Shown here: positions 10,459-61,090 of the stretch, one piece after another
How positions within the stretch are numbered: the stretch's first letter is position 1
Layout of the letters: every line of letters starts with the position of its first letter
Assembly (NCBI GenBank): GCA_013298125.1
Contig: JAAFJP010000001.1
Location: forward strand, 62,001 to 126,000
Source of the DNA: Cytophagales bacterium
GTDB taxonomy: Bacteria > Bacteroidota > Bacteroidia > Cytophagales > Spirosomataceae
DNA length: 64,000 bases
Reading direction: 5' to 3'
Program-made: the position numbers and the translations under genes
The notes under the pieces: generated by a model
Databases searched by the model: none
What the model saw: the letters and a program-made list of their open reading frames with translations, nothing else
Told to the model about the DNA's origin: nothing

Positions 10459-10602
10459 CTTGTTTTGGTTTTTAGACACAGCAAATTTTCTCTATTAACT
10501 ATCTTTCCTATGTCTCTATGTGGTTACAAATGTATTTGAAAAAATGGAAATGTGAGTGTATTTTAGAAGAATGGTTTTTTGGGTGGATATTTTGGTCAAT
10601 AT

Positions 10603-10720
10603 GTAGGGGCGTATCGCATACGCCCGAATTGTCGGAATGTGGGCGTATGCGAGAGGGCGTATGCGATACGCCCCTACGATTTTCTGCAATCCAAATGGGT
10701 GTATGCGATACGCCCCCTAC
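10603..10720. repeat. REP-like palindrome, GGGCGTATGCGATACGCCC family
   Basis: GTAGGGGCGTATCGCATACG (from 10603) pairs with CGTATGCGATACGCCCCTAC (ending 10677), 23-bp perfect arms, and a third, slightly different copy of the right arm stands at 10697-10720. It lies just upstream of the GH106-like gene. The short frames it opens are not genes. Confidence 0.75.
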
Positions 10721-10758
10721 TTTTCAGTAACCAATTTACCTTTCCGTCTTTCTATACT

Positions 10759-13686
10759 ATGAAATTCCCAAAACTATTCCCCCTCATCATATTCCTTTCC
10801 ATACTAAGAGGAAACGCCCAATCCCTCCAATGGAAGCCCATTACTCAACTATCGAAACCGTGGTCTCGTTGGTGGTGGATGGGCAATGCCGTCAATCCCA
10901 AAGACCTGACTTTCAACATGGAAGCCTATCAAAAAGTTGGTTTGGGCGGACTGGAAATTACCCCAATTTATGGTGTAAAAGGTACGGAATCTCAATTCGT
11001 TGATTTTCTTTCGCCTACATGGGTGAGCCTGTTCAAACACACCCTCACGGAAGGCAAACGCTTGGATTTGGGCATTGACTTAGCCAATGCTTCGGGCTGG
11101 CCCTTTGGTGGACGTTGGGTTGAGCCAGAAGATGCTTGTAGATACATAACTCATAAAATCTATTCCTTAAAAGAAGGCGAAACATTGACTGAGAAAATCG
11201 CCTATCAACAAACGCCTTTACTCCGTTATGTTCGTTCTAATGATTTTAAAATCAATGACTTACAACAACCCATTTCCAAAAACAATAACCTCCAAGAACT
11301 TGCCATTGACCAAGTGAGATTTGAAAAACCTTTGCCTTTGCAAACGCTTATGGCGTATTCAGACAGAGGAGAAATTTTGAATTTGACTGATAAAATTACA
11401 CTTGAAAATCAACTTAATTGGACAGCCCCCAAAGGGAATTGGACGCTTTATGCACTCTTTTCGGGTTGGCATGGCAAAATGGTTGAACGGGCTGGACCGG
11501 GTGGAGAAGGAGATGTGATTGACCATTTTTCTGAAAAAGCAACCAAGAATTATCTCGCTGCCTTCGACAAAGCATTTGCCAATACGGACGTGAGTTCAAT
11601 GCGGGCTTTTTTCAATGATTCCTACGAAGTGGATGATGCCAAAGGGCAGGCAGATTGGACACCAGAGCTATTTAATGAGTTTCAAAAAAGACGTGGGTAT
11701 GACCTTCGGAATTATTTGCCAAATCTGTTTAGCCAAGAAAAAACGGACATCAATCGTAGGGTTTTATGTGATTATAGAACAACGATTTCTGACTTGATTT
11801 TAGAGAAATATACCTCCGTATGGGCAAATTGGGGGCATTCTCGTGGAAAAATTGTGAGAAACCAGGCTCATGGTTCACCTGGCAATACCTTAGATTTATA
11901 TTCGCAGGTTGATATTCCTGAAATTGAAGGAATGGATTTATTACGAATAAAATTTGCTTCATCTGCCTCGAATGTGATGGGTAAAAAATTGACCTCTTCC
12001 GAATCTGCCACTTGGGAAAATGAACATTTTTTATCCAATTTGGGTGATGTAAAAAAGAGTTTAGACCGATTTATGCTGGGCGGCATTAACCATATTTTCT
12101 ATCACGGTACGAATTATTCACCCCAAAATGAGCCTTTTCCAGGATGGTTGTTTTATGCGGCGGTGCATTTTACGCCTCACAATCCATTTTGGAAAGATTT
12201 TGGAGCTTTGAATCAGTATGTGGCTCGTTGTCAGACGTTTTTGCAAGATACCAAACCCGACAATGACATTCTTTTGTACTTCCCGATTTATGACCGTTTT
12301 TCAGAACAAACGTCCAAAGGTTTGCTCCAACATTTTGACGGTGTTACGCCCGAATTTAATGATACAGATTTTAAGTCAGTAGCTCAAAAAATGTTGGATA
12401 AAGGTTATTCTTTTGATTATATTTCGGATAAGCAAATTGCGGATTTGGAGGTAGCCTCACCCCGAAGCGTCGGTCGCCCCAGCCCCCTCTCCCGTGGAGA
12501 GGGGGGGTATTTGTCGTTGAATTTCTCCCCCTCTCCACGGGAGAGGGGGCTGGGGCGACCGACGCTTCGGGGTGAGGCTTCTTGGAAAACCATTCTACTG
12601 TCTGAAAATGAGATAATTACGATTAATACTTTTGAAAAATTAATTCAATTAGCCAAAGAGGGAGCTGTGATTGTTGTTCATAATCAATTACCCAAAAACG
12701 TGGAAGGATTGAATAATATATCAGCACGACAAGCAAAATTTAAGAGCCTGATTGCTCAACTGAATTTCGTAAAAAATCAAGGAATTTCTGTGGCAAAAAT
12801 TGGAAAAGGAGCTTTTATCTTAGGAGAAAATTTAGAGGAAATTTTGACGGCAGCAAAGGTGCAAAGGGAGACAATGATTGATGTTGGTTTACAATGTATT
12901 CGTAAAAATCATTCCAAAGGTAAGACTTACTTTATCAATAATCAGTCGGATAAAAACTTTGAGGGTTGGGTGAAAATTGAGTCTCCTTTTCAGTCTATTG
13001 CCCTCTATAACCCGATGAATAAGAGCTTAGGATTGGCAAAAATCAAGGCAAAAAGCCAAGAAGTTTATCTACAAACTATGGCAGGTGAATCGGTGATTTT
13101 AGAAACCCAAAATGAGGTAATTAAAGGCAATAAATATCCTTATTTCAAAGCCATTACTGAACCCCAAGAATTGACTGGGAACTGGCAAATAAAATTCACC
13201 GAAGGCGGAGAAGTTTTACCAAAAAATATTGAAACAAAAACGCTACAATCATGGACGGATTTTGAGGGAGAAGATTATAAAAATTTCTCTGGCACAGCTA
13301 CTTACGTACATACATTTGCAAATCCAAATACTTCTAAGTCAGGCTATTGGCTTGATTTTGGCAAAGTTTCTGAATCTGCAAGTGTGCGTATGAACGGACA
13401 AATTATAGGAACATTATTAGGTCCAGTATATCGTATTTTTGTGCCTTCAAAGCTCTTGAAATCTCAAAATATTTTAACGATTGAAGTTTCCAATTCTATG
13501 GCAAATCGGGTGATTGCTTTGGAGAAAAAGGGGGTTGTTTGGCAGAAGTTTTATAACATCAATGTCTCGGCAAGATTGAAGCAAAATTTAGGAGAAAATG
13601 GCTATTTTACCACAAAAAATTGGACTCCGAAACCGTCTGGGATTTTGGGGAAGGTTACGCTGACGGCGGTTGGGGTTTTGAAGTGA
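10759..13686 (+). CDS. GH106-like glycosidase (alpha-L-rhamnosidase type) with palindromic insertion
   Basis: 975-residue exported enzyme of the large 'glycosyl hydrolase' family that includes GH106 alpha-L-rhamnosidases. Start set at the ATG at 10759, which gives a signal peptide (MKFPKLFPLIIFLSILRGNA); the longer frame reads through the upstream repeat. Seen: SRWWWMGNAVNPKDLTFNM and GLGGLEITPIYGVKG near the mature start, FNDSYEVDDAKGQADWTPE, EGMDLLRIKFASSASNVMGK, FYHGTNYSPQNEPFPGW, and a C-terminal galactose-binding-like domain (YWLDFGKVSESASVRMNGQI). Between about residues 565 and 607 the protein is interrupted by a Pro/Arg/Ser/Gly-rich stretch encoded by a 127-bp palindrome, which keeps the frame open. 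Predicted role: release of terminal rhamnose; RhaM at 38624 fits. Confidence 0.85.
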   Translation: MKFPKLFPLIIFLSILRGNAQSLQWKPITQLSKPWSRWWWMGNAVNPKDLTFNMEAYQKVGLGGLEITPIYGVKGTESQFVDFLSPTWVSLFKHTLTEGKRLDLGIDLANASGWPFGGRWVEPEDACRYITHKIYSLKEGETLTEKIAYQQTPLLRYVRSNDFKINDLQQPISKNNNLQELAIDQVRFEKPLPLQTLMAYSDRGEILNLTDKITLENQLNWTAPKGNWTLYALFSGWHGKMVERAGPGGEGDVIDHFSEKATKNYLAAFDKAFANTDVSSMRAFFNDSYEVDDAKGQADWTPELFNEFQKRRGYDLRNYLPNLFSQEKTDINRRVLCDYRTTISDLILEKYTSVWANWGHSRGKIVRNQAHGSPGNTLDLYSQVDIPEIEGMDLLRIKFASSASNVMGKKLTSSESATWENEHFLSNLGDVKKSLDRFMLGGINHIFYHGTNYSPQNEPFPGWLFYAAVHFTPHNPFWKDFGALNQYVARCQTFLQDTKPDNDILLYFPIYDRFSEQTSKGLLQHFDGVTPEFNDTDFKSVAQKMLDKGYSFDYISDKQIADLEVASPRSVGRPSPLSRGEGGYLSLNFSPSPRERGLGRPTLRGEASWKTILLSENEIITINTFEKLIQLAKEGAVIVVHNQLPKNVEGLNNISARQAKFKSLIAQLNFVKNQGISVAKIGKGAFILGENLEEILTAAKVQRETMIDVGLQCIRKNHSKGKTYFINNQSDKNFEGWVKIESPFQSIALYNPMNKSLGLAKIKAKSQEVYLQTMAGESVILETQNEVIKGNKYPYFKAITEPQELTGNWQIKFTEGGEVLPKNIETKTLQSWTDFEGEDYKNFSGTATYVHTFANPNTSKSGYWLDFGKVSESASVRMNGQIIGTLLGPVYRIFVPSKLLKSQNILTIEVSNSMANRVIALEKKGVVWQKFYNINVSARLKQNLGENGYFTTKNWTPKPSGILGKVTLTAVGVLK
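12453..12579. repeat. palindromic element A, in frame inside the GH106-like gene
   Basis: Perfect 53-bp inverted arms (12453-12505 and 12527-12579) around a 21-base loop. Its GC content is far above that of the gene. Arms contain AGCGTCGGTCGCC and CCCCCTCTCCCGTGGAGAGG. It encodes PSPLSRGEGG on one arm and SPSPRERGLG on the other, and no stop arises. Related to elements D and E. Confidence 0.95.
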
Positions 13687-14802: not shown

Positions 14803-16161
14803 ATGAAAATGTCTAACGTTATACTAATTTCAGTGCTATTTGTATTTTCTTTCTCGAATGGTACTACTGCACAAACTCAACAAATATGTGGAGGAACTAT
14901 CCCAACAGGTTGGATTACTATATCTATTGATGGGAATTGCAATGGAGGTTACATCAAAAGGACTATTAAAAAAATTGATGGGCTTCCTTCTGGTACTACA
15001 TTAGATATTTGCGGTGACTCTCCGCCAGCAGGATGGATTACAATAAGAATCAAGTCTGACTATTGTACACGATTAGGTTCTTATGCGTACACTGGAAGAA
15101 CTATTAAAAAAATTGATGGGCTTCCTTCTGGTACTACATTAGATATTTGCGGTGACTCTCCGCCAGCAGGATGGATTACAATAAGAATCAATTCTGACTA
15201 TTGTACACGATTAGGTTCTCTTGCTTATACGGGTAGAACTATTAAAAAAATTGATGGGCTTCCTTCTGGTACTACATTAGATATTTGCGGTGACTCACCG
15301 CCAGCAGGATGGATTACAACAAGAATTAATTCTGCTTATTGTACACGACTAGGTTCTCTTGCTTATACGGGTAGAACTATTAAAAAAATTGATGGGCTTC
15401 CTTCTAGTACTATATTAGATATTTGCGGTGACTCACCGCCAGCAGGATGGATTACAATAAGAATTAATTCTGATTATTGTACACGATTAGGTTCTCTTGC
15501 TTATACGGGTAGAACTATTAAAAAAATTGATGGGCTTCCTTCTGGTACAACATTAGATATTTGTGGTGATTCTCCACCAAGAGGATGGATTACAACAAGA
15601 ATTAATTCTGATTATTGTACACGATTAGGTTCTCTTGCTTATACGGGTAGAACTATTAAAAAAATTGATGGGCTTCCTATTGGAACTACATTAGATATTT
15701 GTGGTGATTCTCCGCCAGCTGGATGGGTAACAACTTATATATTCCCTAATTATTGTGCACGATTAGGTTCTCTTGCATTCACTGGGAGTACTATAAAGAA
15801 ATTACAAGGGATGGGTAACAGAGAGGCTAGTACTTTTGCAGATTCGTTATCGTCTGTTTTAACTGATAATTCGTCAAACTTTTCAAAGAATTATTTAATG
15901 AATGAATCTGAGGATGATTTCAATGTAATAATTGCACCGAATCCTACAAGTTCTGAATTTACTCTTAATTTTTCCAGTATTGATCAAGATACTCCAATAT
16001 TTTATAGAGTTTATGGTTTAGCAGGACAAGTAATAGAGGAAGGAAACATTGAGCCTAATAAAAAAAATATTAATATAGGTAATGATTTTAGCTCAGGTAC
16101 TTATATACTCCATGCCTTTCAAACTAATAAATTTAAGATTATTAAGTTAATGAAACTATAA
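14803..16161 (+). CDS. secreted T9SS protein with near-identical 46-residue Cys repeats
   Basis: 452 residues. Signal peptide MKMSNVILISVLFVFSFSNG...AQ, then one degenerate and six regular 46-residue repeats (about residues 28-330), each carrying CGDSPPAGWIT and YCTRLGSLAYTG, i.e. two cysteines per repeat that could pair. The C-terminus (from about residue 375: IIAPNPTSSEFTLNFSS...FSSGTYILHAFQTNKFKIIKL) is a type A sorting domain, so the product is exported by the type IX system and attached at the cell surface or released. A GGAGG Shine-Dalgarno-like stretch stands six bases before the ATG, unusual for the phylum. Function unknown; adhesion or ligand binding is a guess. Confidence 0.85.
   Translation: MKMSNVILISVLFVFSFSNGTTAQTQQICGGTIPTGWITISIDGNCNGGYIKRTIKKIDGLPSGTTLDICGDSPPAGWITIRIKSDYCTRLGSYAYTGRTIKKIDGLPSGTTLDICGDSPPAGWITIRINSDYCTRLGSLAYTGRTIKKIDGLPSGTTLDICGDSPPAGWITTRINSAYCTRLGSLAYTGRTIKKIDGLPSSTILDICGDSPPAGWITIRINSDYCTRLGSLAYTGRTIKKIDGLPSGTTLDICGDSPPRGWITTRINSDYCTRLGSLAYTGRTIKKIDGLPIGTTLDICGDSPPAGWVTTYIFPNYCARLGSLAFTGSTIKKLQGMGNREASTFADSLSSVLTDNSSNFSKNYLMNESEDDFNVIIAPNPTSSEFTLNFSSIDQDTPIFYRVYGLAGQVIEEGNIEPNKKNINIGNDFSSGTYILHAFQTNKFKIIKLMKL
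14962..15789 (+). repeat. six tandem 138-bp coding repeats
   Basis: Units start at 14962, 15100, 15238, 15376, 15514 and 15652, each exactly 138 bp and opening with ACTATTAAAAAAATTGATGG; a partial unit precedes and another follows. Neighbouring units differ at only a few bases, many of them silent, which suggests recent expansion or gene conversion. Confidence 0.95.
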
Positions 16162-35859: not shown

Positions 35860-35940
35860 AACTTCCCGAAAGTAGAAATAACTTTCGAGAAGTTGTTGAG
35901 AGTCTTACTTCCCGAAAGTTATTTCTACTTTCGGGAAGTT
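35860..35940. repeat. 34-bp inverted repeat, CTTCCCGAAAGT family
   Basis: AACTTCCCGAAAGTAGAAAT... (35860-35893) faces its complement (35907-35940) with one mismatch and a 13-base loop. The arm end CTTCCCGAAA is shared with the smaller repeat at 3600-3629. It lies upstream of the FecA-like gene's promoter. Confidence 0.8.
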
Positions 35941-54132: not shown

Positions 54133-54211
54133 ACAACATCCCCCTGCCCCCTTCAAAGGGGGAATTGCACTAATGGTAAATCCCCCTTTGAAGGGGGCAG
54201 GGGGATGTTGT
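54133..54211. repeat. palindromic element B
   Basis: Perfect 31-bp arms (54133-54163 and 54181-54211) with a 17-base loop, containing CATCCCCCTGCCCCCTTCAA. It lies 4 bases past the GntR stop and ends 22 bases before the next ATG. GC-rich against its AT-rich surroundings; same general type as elements A, C, D and E. Confidence 0.95.
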
Positions 54212-56434: not shown

Positions 56435-57614
56435 CCACCATCCACTCCGCCAACAAAGCCAAACAATGTGCCTCACAAGTCCAATTGATGTGGAAAAGTT
56501 TGGAAGAAGATAATTTGTAGAGCAAAGGGTTTTCGTAGGCGGTAAGTAGTCCTGCGATGAAGAAACCAGCCCCCCCCGCCCCCGATGGGGGAGCTTTCTC
56601 GTCCACAAAATTGAACGAAATAACGGACGATGAAGCTCCCCCATCGGGGGCGGGGGGGGCTACTGTTTCTAATATTACTTTATCCCAAAAACTCAAATCC
56701 ACTTTCTGTAAATAATACAAAATATCTCCTTCCAATTTCTCCCGACAAATTTCTAATTCGGGAATGTGAAATTTATTCATCAATCGCATGACGTGATACA
56801 TAATCAAAGGTGTGCGTGCGTACTGATGTGCTACTCGAAAAGGTTGTTCGATGTACTGATTTGAGAGAATTGTTTGTTGGATATATTTTACAGAATCTTG
56901 TCCGTGCTGGTCTAATTCTAAACCAAAATGTAATTGACAATAAATCATATTCGACAAAGCACAAGCATCAAACTCGATGTACATATCTTTGCCAAACCAA
57001 GTGGAATAAGCATTGAGGTTTTTGTATTCTGGAAACGTATTTTTGATTTGTTGTTTATGATTATTGGAATGTTGTATCAACTTGTTTTGCAACCACTTAG
57101 CATCTTCTCGTGTATGCGGAAGCGTCATGTAAATCATCGCAGTATCATCAATGTCATCAGGGATTTTGAAGTGATTGAAACGATGCAGAAGATTACCGTG
57201 TGGGAAATGTTGTGAAGGATTGGTTTGAAAGAAATTATAAGTATTTAGTGCATCTTTATTTTTGAATAAATTATAACTACGGACAGCCTTATCCGTAATT
57301 TGTTCAACTAATTTTTGAGATTCAAGTGATAATTTTTCCTTGATATTATTAAGTGTAAAAACCGTAATTGCCGTAAAAAAAACATTCGTATCTGGACGAC
57401 GATATCGCAAATATTCATTACTCCGATACGACTCAAAAATACCTTCGGGAAAGTATTTTCGATTAGCGGCATCTTGGAGATGTACAATTTTTTGTATGAG
57501 GTCGTCCAGAGAAAACCTCACCCCCGACCCCTCTCCCATTGAGAGGGGAGTATTCGTCTGTCTAAAAACTCCCCTCTCCACGGGAGAGGGGTCGGGGGTG
57601 AGGCTCTTATTCAT
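56409..57614 (-). CDS. hypothetical protein with a DxDDTA motif, carrying two in-frame palindromes
   Basis: 401 residues, no signal peptide. Residues 153-160 read DDIDDTAM, the acidic motif of class II terpene cyclases (squalene-hopene and copalyl type), in an otherwise helical protein (NNIKEKLSLESQKLVEQ, EDAKWLQNKLIQHSN, YARTPLIMYHVMRLM). I do not recognise the family, and the length is below that of the known bacterial class II cyclases, so a cyclase-like fold is only a possibility. Palindrome D supplies residues 4-33 (LTPDPSPVERGV..., SMGEGSGVR) and palindrome C residues 318-349 (TVAPPAPDGGAS, EKAPPSGAGGAG). Both keep the frame. The start ATG overlaps the stop of the GNAT gene upstream (ATGA), so it is translationally coupled. 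Confidence 0.7.
   Translation of the reverse strand: MNKSLTPDPSPVERGVFRQTNTPLSMGEGSGVRFSLDDLIQKIVHLQDAANRKYFPEGIFESYRSNEYLRYRRPDTNVFFTAITVFTLNNIKEKLSLESQKLVEQITDKAVRSYNLFKNKDALNTYNFFQTNPSQHFPHGNLLHRFNHFKIPDDIDDTAMIYMTLPHTREDAKWLQNKLIQHSNNHKQQIKNTFPEYKNLNAYSTWFGKDMYIEFDACALSNMIYCQLHFGLELDQHGQDSVKYIQQTILSNQYIEQPFRVAHQYARTPLIMYHVMRLMNKFHIPELEICREKLEGDILYYLQKVDLSFWDKVILETVAPPAPDGGASSSVISFNFVDEKAPPSGAGGAGFFIAGLLTAYENPLLYKLSSSKLFHINWTCEAHCLALLAEWMVVTNRNNPL
56568..56661. repeat. palindromic element C, in frame in the DxDDTA gene
   Basis: Perfect 29-bp arms (56568-56596 and 56633-56661), with an extra TCGTCC pairing further in, around the sequence GCCCCCGATGGGGGAGCTT. Translated on the minus strand it gives PPAPDGGA on one arm and APPSGAGGA on the other. 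Confidence 0.93.
57516..57603. repeat. palindromic element D, forms the N-terminus of the DxDDTA protein
   Basis: Arms of 36 bases (57516-57551 and 57568-57603) with two mismatches, loop 16. Contains CCTCACCCCCGACCCCTCTC, akin to elements A and E. Its right edge is 9 bases from the ATG at 57614, so it inserted just after the start codon. Confidence 0.93.
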
Positions 57615-59307: not shown

Positions 59308-59399
59308 ACCTCGCCCTCCGCCCCCCTCTCCGTTAGAGAGGGGGAGAAATCGTCCGAATGCTCCCCCTCTCTAACGGAGATGGGGCTGGGGGGTGAGGT
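59308..59399. repeat. palindromic element E
   Basis: 39-bp arms (59308-59346 and 59361-59399), the inner 20 perfect (TCTCCGTTAGAGAGGGGGAG) and the outer part with several mismatches, loop 14. It occupies the spacer between the GNAT start at 59298 and the PhzF stop. Same family as A and D by the CCCCTCTCC/GGAGAGGGG core. Confidence 0.9.
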
Positions 59400-60893: not shown

Positions 60894-61090
60894 TTTGTAG
60901 GCACGAATAGCATTCGTCCAAATCAGGACGTGTACGAATGCTATTCCAATGCTGTCAATTTAAGAAATCTGTCCGACTAACGCTGGTAGGGTTCAAAACC
61001 CTACCAGCGTTCAAACGGGGTTATTAAATATATTTTGACAAAAGTAAAACCTTAAATTGACAGCATTGGAATGCTATTCGTCCCTACAAA
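60894..61090. repeat. CGAATAGCATT-family element, copy 2, interrupted by an inserted element
   Basis: The outer element reads TTTGTAGGCACGAATAGCAT..., GTACGAATGCTATTC at the left part and GAATGCTATTCGTCCCTACA at the right, split by 122 bp. Joined across the insertion it matches the intact copy at 1344-1410. Confidence 0.85.
60947..61068. mobile_element. 122-bp MITE-like element with 18-bp inverted ends and 11-bp flanking direct repeats
   Basis: Perfect terminal inverted repeats CAATGCTGTCAATTTAAG and CTTAAATTGACAGCATTG. Direct repeats GAATGCTATTC lie directly on both sides (60936-60946 and 61069-61079). Inside is a palindrome with GCTGGTAGGGTT and AACCCTACCAGC. No gene is encoded, so it would need a transposase in trans. 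It has inserted into another repeat. Confidence 0.85.

Follow-up and report, generated by a model that had tools for sequence, protein, structure and literature searches.

A palindrome in frame inside a GH106 gene and the ends that its dispersed family shares with DUF559 elements

The window analysed here is a 64,000-nucleotide stretch of DNA from a Cytophagales bacterium (GenBank assembly GCA_013298125.1, contig JAAFJP010000001.1, positions 62,001 to 126,000 of the forward strand), and its subject is a long palindromic element that lies in frame inside a gene for a GH106 (alpha-L-rhamnosidase family) protein. Window coordinates are used throughout, and our own handles for genomes (G), contigs (C), loci (L) and families (f) are given where needed. 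The locus is laid out as follows.

10759-13686, forward strand: host gene, GH106 protein of 975 amino acids, ATG at 10759 (PF17132, E 7e-67)
12453-12579, forward strand: palindromic element of the long subfamily, two inverted units resembling repetitive extragenic palindromic (REP) sequences plus a spacer, in frame in the GH106 gene and coding for ASPRSVGRPSPLSRGEGGYLSLNFSPSPRERGLGRPTLRGEA
12453-12505, forward strand: left arm, 53 bp
12455-12463, forward strand: outer tag CCTCACCCC, common to other copies and to the left end of the IleRS DUF559 element described below
12483-12505, unstranded: inner hairpin of the left unit, CCCCCTCTCC, loop CGT, GGAGAGGGGG
12506-12526, unstranded: 21-nt spacer, the centre between the arms
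12527-12549, unstranded: inner hairpin of the right unit, CCCCCTCTCC, loop ACG, GGAGAGGGGG
12527-12579, reverse strand: right arm, 53 bp, perfect reverse complement of the left arm
12569-12577, reverse strand: outer tag CCTCACCCC, inverted

The palindromic element and its host gene

No mismatch separates the two 53-bp arms. A preliminary description of this DNA had spoken of a 127-bp perfect palindrome, which is right for the arms but loose as wording for the whole, as the 21-nt centre lies between them. The element has a G+C content of 68.5% against 36.5% for the window, and its predicted RNA fold reaches -139.6 kcal/mol (z -18.5), with none of 200 shuffled sequences folding as well. Each half has the architecture of a REP-like unit, the tag CCTCACCCC followed by a hairpin with a pyrimidine arm, CCCCTCTCC-N3-GGAGAGGGG, and the two hairpin units are inverted with respect to each other, as in REP doublets (REPINs). 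Part of the right arm (12540-12577) is identical over 38 bp to a stretch adjoining a DUF559 domain on contig C46.

The element supplies residues 566-607 of the 975-residue protein, and, as the preliminary description had reported, the glycosidase reading frame stays open through it without a stop. The ATG at 10759 is the likely start of the gene rather than 10579; a start at 10579 adds a repetitive stretch, 10579-10758 (YAIRP; GTAGGGGCGTATCGCATACGCCC inverted repeats at 10603-10716), whose inverted repeats are possibly a second dispersed palindrome family.

The relatives retrieved with the GH106 protein come from Arcicella and other Cytophagales, and the window itself is probably Arcicella-like. 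Fifty-six homologous loci were searched, 42 of which aligned on both flanks and 14 on one flank only; four pairs among the 42 are the same sequence, and the compared stretch of G007 (same genus code) is identical to that of Arcicella aurantiaca. The site is empty in 42/42 of the two-flank loci, so the expectation that homologues would lack the palindromic stretch was borne out. The clean gap that had also been expected is absent: every one of these loci holds a variable loop of 30 or 33 nt at the site (e.g. KNQSITNGAT in Arcicella), from which it follows that about ten codons were replaced and that this was no clean insertion. The nearest homologue (G035, 93-96% identical) is split between the end of contig C203 and the start of C166 (L106) near the insertion site.

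An AlphaFold2 model of the GH106 protein (46 alignment rows) has a mean predicted local distance difference test (pLDDT) score of 85, and the only internal stretches below 50, residues 567-584 and 590-606, both fall within the element, between strands 563-566 and 611-614. As low confidence inside the model is confined to the element and bracketed by two strands, the added peptide is predicted to be a disordered loop. A search of solved structures with the GH106 protein returned three distant chains, from which the position of the element cannot be read.

A dispersed family that keeps the host reading frame

The palindrome is one of roughly a hundred scattered copies. Its 127 bp have at least 81 matches in the genome, counting both strands and with 40 of 92 first-look candidates scored. 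The half-site pattern CCTCACCCC-N(2-30)-CCCCTCTC occurs 106 times forward and 105 times in reverse, with no occurrence of the reversed-pattern control. For closer inspection, all pattern matches listed on contigs C1 to C20:23493 were combined with 20 further places matching the 127-bp element (six omitted), which gave 86 elements and, with duplicates removed, 81 copies: 66 whole elements and 15 single units. Among the 66 whole copies, 47 are short (80-93 bp), 9 are long (109-125 bp) and 10 have other lengths; each half contains a hairpin with a 9-10 bp stem and a 3-nt loop in addition to the tag, and the long copies, like the one in the window, have both arms enlarged by a further module such as GAAGCGTCGGTCG. 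The AA/TT at the extreme ends probably belongs to the unit. Palindromic extension into the flanks averages 2.7 nt and is not used as evidence here.

The two arms of one copy resemble each other more closely than arms of different copies do (47 short copies: 0.951 within against 0.862 between, permutation p <= 0.0002; 9 long copies: 0.968 against 0.872). The perfect arms had been ascribed to recent insertion or active correction; the within-copy likeness fits arm correction, and it also fits spread from several master copies.

Twenty-four of the 81 copies lie in frame inside open frames, taken here as an open frame of at least 60 amino acids on each side, while 1 breaks a gene and 56 lie elsewhere. 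The frame is thus kept in 24 of 25 copies inside genes, compared with one third expected (p 6e-11), and none of the 24 carries a stop; the single gene-breaking copy (L192:1525-1610) separates open frames of 508 and 430 amino acids that do not join through the element. By Pfam, the in-frame hosts comprise a GHMP kinase, an exosortase, a Mur ligase-alanine racemase fusion, RND pumps, molybdopterin oxidoreductases, QueA, penicillin amidase, LeuRS, a photolyase, FUSC, heparinase, a MutS-domain protein, MetRS, DUF1549/1553, IleRS (in the form of a DUF559 element), a histidine kinase and a DUF4011 helicase. Single units lie in genes more often than whole elements (10/15 against 14/66, Fisher p 0.001); as the IleRS DUF559 element accounts for two of those ten with its own ends, no conclusion on enrichment of single units is drawn.

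Several of these sites can be compared with relatives. At the MetRS site, where this genome reads FQNSPLNGRGAGGEA, the relatives read TDQ (TED in one) and 7/7 loci are empty. The LeuRS site is empty in 6/7 relatives' loci (KYKGE, KYQGE in one), its insert being shared by G007. In the photolyase, the loop that holds SSPLSRRGAGGEV here carries a different palindrome-like peptide in G002, G005 and G007 (L319, L321, L324), QPSPKGRAIDIKSPPSRGGLGG in two of them. With different inserts in the photolyase loop, and given the states of the other two sites, all three appear to be permissive loops in which inserts of this kind accumulate.

The window contains further palindromes, listed here.

57516-57603, unstranded: another copy of the family, short subfamily
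59308-59399, unstranded: another, less regular palindrome with CCCCTCTCC and CCTCACCCC motifs

C/T-rich palindromes at 54133-54211 (ACAACATCCCCCTGCCCCCTTCAAAGGGGG) and 56568-56661 (AGCCCCCCCCGCCCCCGATGGGGGAGC) are related in style and different in sequence.

DUF559 open reading frames between the same units

A family search of the genome returned two DUF559 matches, each in frame in a host gene and framed by palindrome units. One is in IleRS on C17, where the PF04480 domain lies between two single units; the other is in a large nuclease gene on C46 with a PD-(D/E)XK domain, AddB-like as judged from its translation. The IleRS element starts on the left with CCTCACCCCCAACCCCTCTCCCGTGGAGAGGGG, and its right unit, CCCCTCTCCACGGGAGAGGGGCTGGGGGTGAGG, is followed by CGACCGACGCTTCGGG, the long-subfamily module. 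Both ends of the palindrome are thereby common to a longer, ORF-carrying copy, as in miniature inverted-repeat transposable elements (MITEs) derived from a larger element, and the IleRS insert reads as a short element split open around an ORF.

This insert is absent in 8/8 Arcicella-group relatives examined (G001-G007, G035), including G035 with its 96-99% identical flanking protein, and present in G031. About ten codons flanking it differ from the empty site, as at GH106. At sites of the C46 type, G001-G006 have no insert and G000, G007 and G035 have one. In LeuRS, one and the same loop is occupied by a short unit in this genome and by a DUF559 element in G055, which is of a different family; the right ends of the two inserts are no more than two codons apart.

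DUF559, which we take to be a PD-(D/E)XK-type nuclease domain, is present in 222 of 395 sampled Bacteroidota genomes, and open frames of at least 600 amino acids hold 39 of the best 150 matches, a ranked and not a random sample. Seventy-seven loci were analysed, 48 embedded and 29 standalone, with three divergent loci (L248-L250) left out of 80. Hosts of the embedded copies were called by Pfam for 29 loci (28 and one IleRS scan), otherwise by reading translations, and are as follows.

MetH: site 1, 10; site 2, 1
tRNA synthetases: LeuRS, two sites, 3 and 4; IleRS, 2
AddB-like, 3; RecG, 2; UvrD-like, 2; IcmF, 2
Restriction-modification (R-M) genes: HsdR, 5; type ISP R-M, 3; HsdM, 2; Eco57I-type, 3
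PurL, 1 (GATase_5; DUF559 at the very end); other or unassigned, 5

In the MetH of G014 (L229 and L252, open frame of 1645 amino acids), one gene holds two DUF559 domains at two sites. The motif ExDGxxH is conserved, with E, G and H in 77/77 domains and D in 76/77. Pfam scans of 28 DUF559 hosts at E 1e-5 returned no intein domain.

Hairpins with an all-pyrimidine 5' arm are found in 79 of the 154 flanking 200-nt stretches, against 6/750 more distant ones, counts that are not independent as the loci are related; at least one side has such a hairpin in 32/48 embedded and 19/29 standalone loci. This count supersedes an inverted-repeat score of 260-nt flanks, by which 12/24 embedded and 12/28 standalone loci exceeded the 95% point of mismatched pairs.

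In a tree of the 77 domains, built on few columns (107), the ten MetH-site-1 copies fall on one side of a branch (99/93), and they stem from the window's family, from other families of its class and from other classes. A group of 33 rows (100/99) unites the MetH, tRNA-synthetase, AddB-like, RecG, IcmF, PurL and UvrD cases and includes one type ISP and two standalone DUF559 genes. LeuRS site 1 is filled by two DUF559 lineages. Within the 33-row group neighbours often share the host lineage and not the gene (IcmF with LeuRS in f22; AddB-like with MetH site 2 in f1), as would be expected of jumps between genes. The palindrome beside the IcmF-embedded DUF559 of f22 has 22 matches in G270 and 32 in G316; elsewhere it has 1 in G136, 0 in G194 and 6 in G000. 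An AlphaFold2 model of a MetH with DUF559 was poor (mean pLDDT 57, 10 rows), and dN/dS values of eight DUF559 pairs had near-saturated pS; neither is used.

Three other repeats lie in the window: a 34-bp inverted repeat, AACTTCCCGAAAGTAGAAATAACTTTCGAGAAGT, at 35860-35940 (97% complementary, 13-nt spacer); a separate repeat family around ACGAATGCTATTCGT / GTAGGAACGAATAGCATT at 1345-1409 and 60894-61090; and an ORF at 14803-16161 made of tandem repeats of about 45 amino acids (TIKKIDGLPSGTTLDICGDSPPAGWITIRINSDYCTRLGSLAYTGR).

Interpretation and comparison with known systems

We consider it probable that the GH106 insert is a non-autonomous, cargo-less, MITE- or REPIN-like copy of a mobile palindromic family whose autonomous form carries a DUF559 nuclease ORF between two inverted REP-like units. 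Protein-coding genes would receive either form at a variable loop or linker, where it would take the place of a few codons without disturbing the frame; the short form would give the host protein a tolerated, disordered peptide and the long form an extra nuclease-like domain. The DUF559 protein, its expression borrowed from the host gene, would cut DNA, recognise or act on the hairpin ends of the units, and move in trans the ORF that encodes it as well as paired units without cargo; frame would be kept through selection against broken hosts, out-of-frame insertions being purged. The broader proposal, which we hold to be as likely as not, is that DUF559 elements form a separate mobile DNA class: a PD-(D/E)XK-type nuclease, bounded by REP-like hairpins, that invades conserved genes in frame, stays in the protein as an additional domain without splicing, and generates and spreads in-frame palindromes such as the one in GH106.

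Several observations weigh against these proposals. That DUF559 moves the palindrome is something we infer from sequence comparison, and DUF559 could instead be cargo or a later insertion into a palindrome. Some of the 24 in-frame cases depend on one another, since the IleRS DUF559 element contributes two of them with its ends and two genes hold two in-frame copies each, and one (L136) is a 179-residue frame without a Pfam match that may not be a gene. Embedded DUF559 copies are defined by stop-free frames, and no pyrimidine hairpin was detected in the 200 nt on either side of 26/77 loci (16/48 embedded, 10/29 standalone). Pfam backing for the PD-(D/E)XK nature consists of weak REase_MTES_1575 matches, mostly under its cut-off. 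Four relatives (G001, G002, G005, G015) have 14-19 half-sites each and no DUF559 match, at completeness values of 99% for G001 and G015 and 84 and 86% for G002 and G005; palindromes therefore exist without a resident nuclease. Target-site duplication, the mark of MITEs derived from classical insertion sequences, is not above control, with direct repeats of at least 3 nt at 30/66 copies and at 23/66 mismatched pairs.

The four relatives and the lack of target-site duplication would also be expected if the palindromes spread by another route and DUF559 genes were passengers inserting into, or recombining at, existing palindromes, and in L226, L232 and L294 the nuclease adjoins whole palindromes and does not only lie between two halves. 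Standalone DUF559 genes are flanked too, however, the IleRS element consists of two single units split around the ORF, and across 59 relatives DUF559 and the pattern co-occur when at least one half-site is required (odds ratio 6.2, p 0.0013, kinship ignored), although at six or more half-sites the association is not significant (p 0.058). We regard the passenger scenario as rather unlikely, though it is the most serious competitor.

Mobilisation as an ordinary REP or REPIN by a REP-associated tyrosine transposase (RAYT, a Y1 HUH transposase) has in its favour the REPIN-like pair of inverted hairpin units with an outer tag and the 5 Y1_Tnp matches in the genome. None of those five has a CCTCACCC or CCCCTCTC motif within 1.5 kb, pyrimidine hairpins occur in 0/60 flanks of 30 Y1_Tnp loci (25 plus the 5 found in this genome, with 5 short loci passed over), and the matched units lack a GTAG tag, so that RAYT as the mover is not supported and we consider it improbable. 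In the same control, drawn from 198 genomes, no listed Y1_Tnp match lay in an open frame of 600 amino acids, the largest among the matches listed being 307.

Mitochondrial byps and inteins are precedents for inserts that are bypassed or spliced out, and the very strong mRNA hairpin and the presence of tRNA synthetases among the hosts would suit ribosome hopping or peptide splicing here. Because bypassing would not require an open frame, the 24/25 genic copies that keep frame without a stop disfavour it, as does the lack of intein domains in the 28 DUF559 hosts for splicing, and this explanation seems very improbable. Assembly artefact can practically be dismissed: long perfect palindromes are easily misassembled and the G035 homologue is split over two contigs ending near the site, but members of the family, with copy-specific arms, turn up in many different contexts and also in other genomes.

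The locus offers a concrete, testable candidate, DUF559, a Pfam domain of unknown function, for the mover of palindromes that invade genes, a part for which the CGTC-type repeats have no candidate; the ends shared by the palindrome and the DUF559 element suggest how such spread may occur. With DUF559 ORFs embedded in frame in them, central enzymes such as MetH, LeuRS, IleRS, RecG, HsdR and IcmF would be hosts to unspliced selfish domains, which would affect their annotation. DUF559 as a partner of REP-like units or as a recurrent in-frame domain of housekeeping enzymes was not found in the literature searched, which included few subscription journals and not bioRxiv, and, judged by title, no paper mentioning DUF559 there concerned such a link.

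With inteins and homing endonucleases, nuclease-like ORFs recur in frame at particular sites of conserved genes. The DUF559 ORF is similarly in frame at recurrent sites of MetH, LeuRS, IleRS and RecG, but its hosts show no intein domain, it is framed by REP-like hairpins, and DUF559 elements seem to be placed in variable loops or linkers.

The palindrome taken alone is of a known kind, REPs and Rickettsia palindromic elements (RPEs) inside genes having already been described. RPEs are described in the review PMC10969869 as dispersed palindromes, first reported at about 150 bp and often in frame in unrelated genes with translational fusion, and in-frame palindromes in bacterial genes have been known since that work (Ogata 2000, as cited in PMC10969869). 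The likeness drawn earlier to these elements holds for behaviour: the present family is dispersed, keeps the frame in unrelated genes and adds low-complexity peptide, but it belongs to another phylum and its ends also frame a DUF559 ORF. That reading had overlooked the family of more than 200 half-sites, the REP-like nature of its halves and the DUF559 ORFs framed by the same units.

Intragenic REPs of the GTAG and CGTC super-families are described by Di Nocera 2013 (PMC3733652) as short tagged hairpin units, often inverted dimers, some of which lie within the reading frames of tRNA synthetases, recB and photolyase; two RPE families are assigned there to the CGTC REPs, which are said to lack a dedicated transposase, and CCTC is noted as a variant tag. 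The units described here are likewise short tagged hairpins in inverted dimers, some in ORFs. They differ in their tag, CCTCACCCC (no GTAG, and, compared by eye, neither a GTAG nor a CGTC unpaired tag), in a CCCCTCTCC stem without AT pairs in positions one and two and without the CCA tail of the CGTC type as described there, and in having a candidate mover. The REPtron, described in the same source as a RAYT gene flanked by REPs, is comparable in organisation: in both, a gene for a (here probable) DNA-acting enzyme lies between REP-like units with many cargo-less copies elsewhere, but the present elements carry DUF559 in place of a Y1 HUH transposase gene and are often found in frame within host genes.

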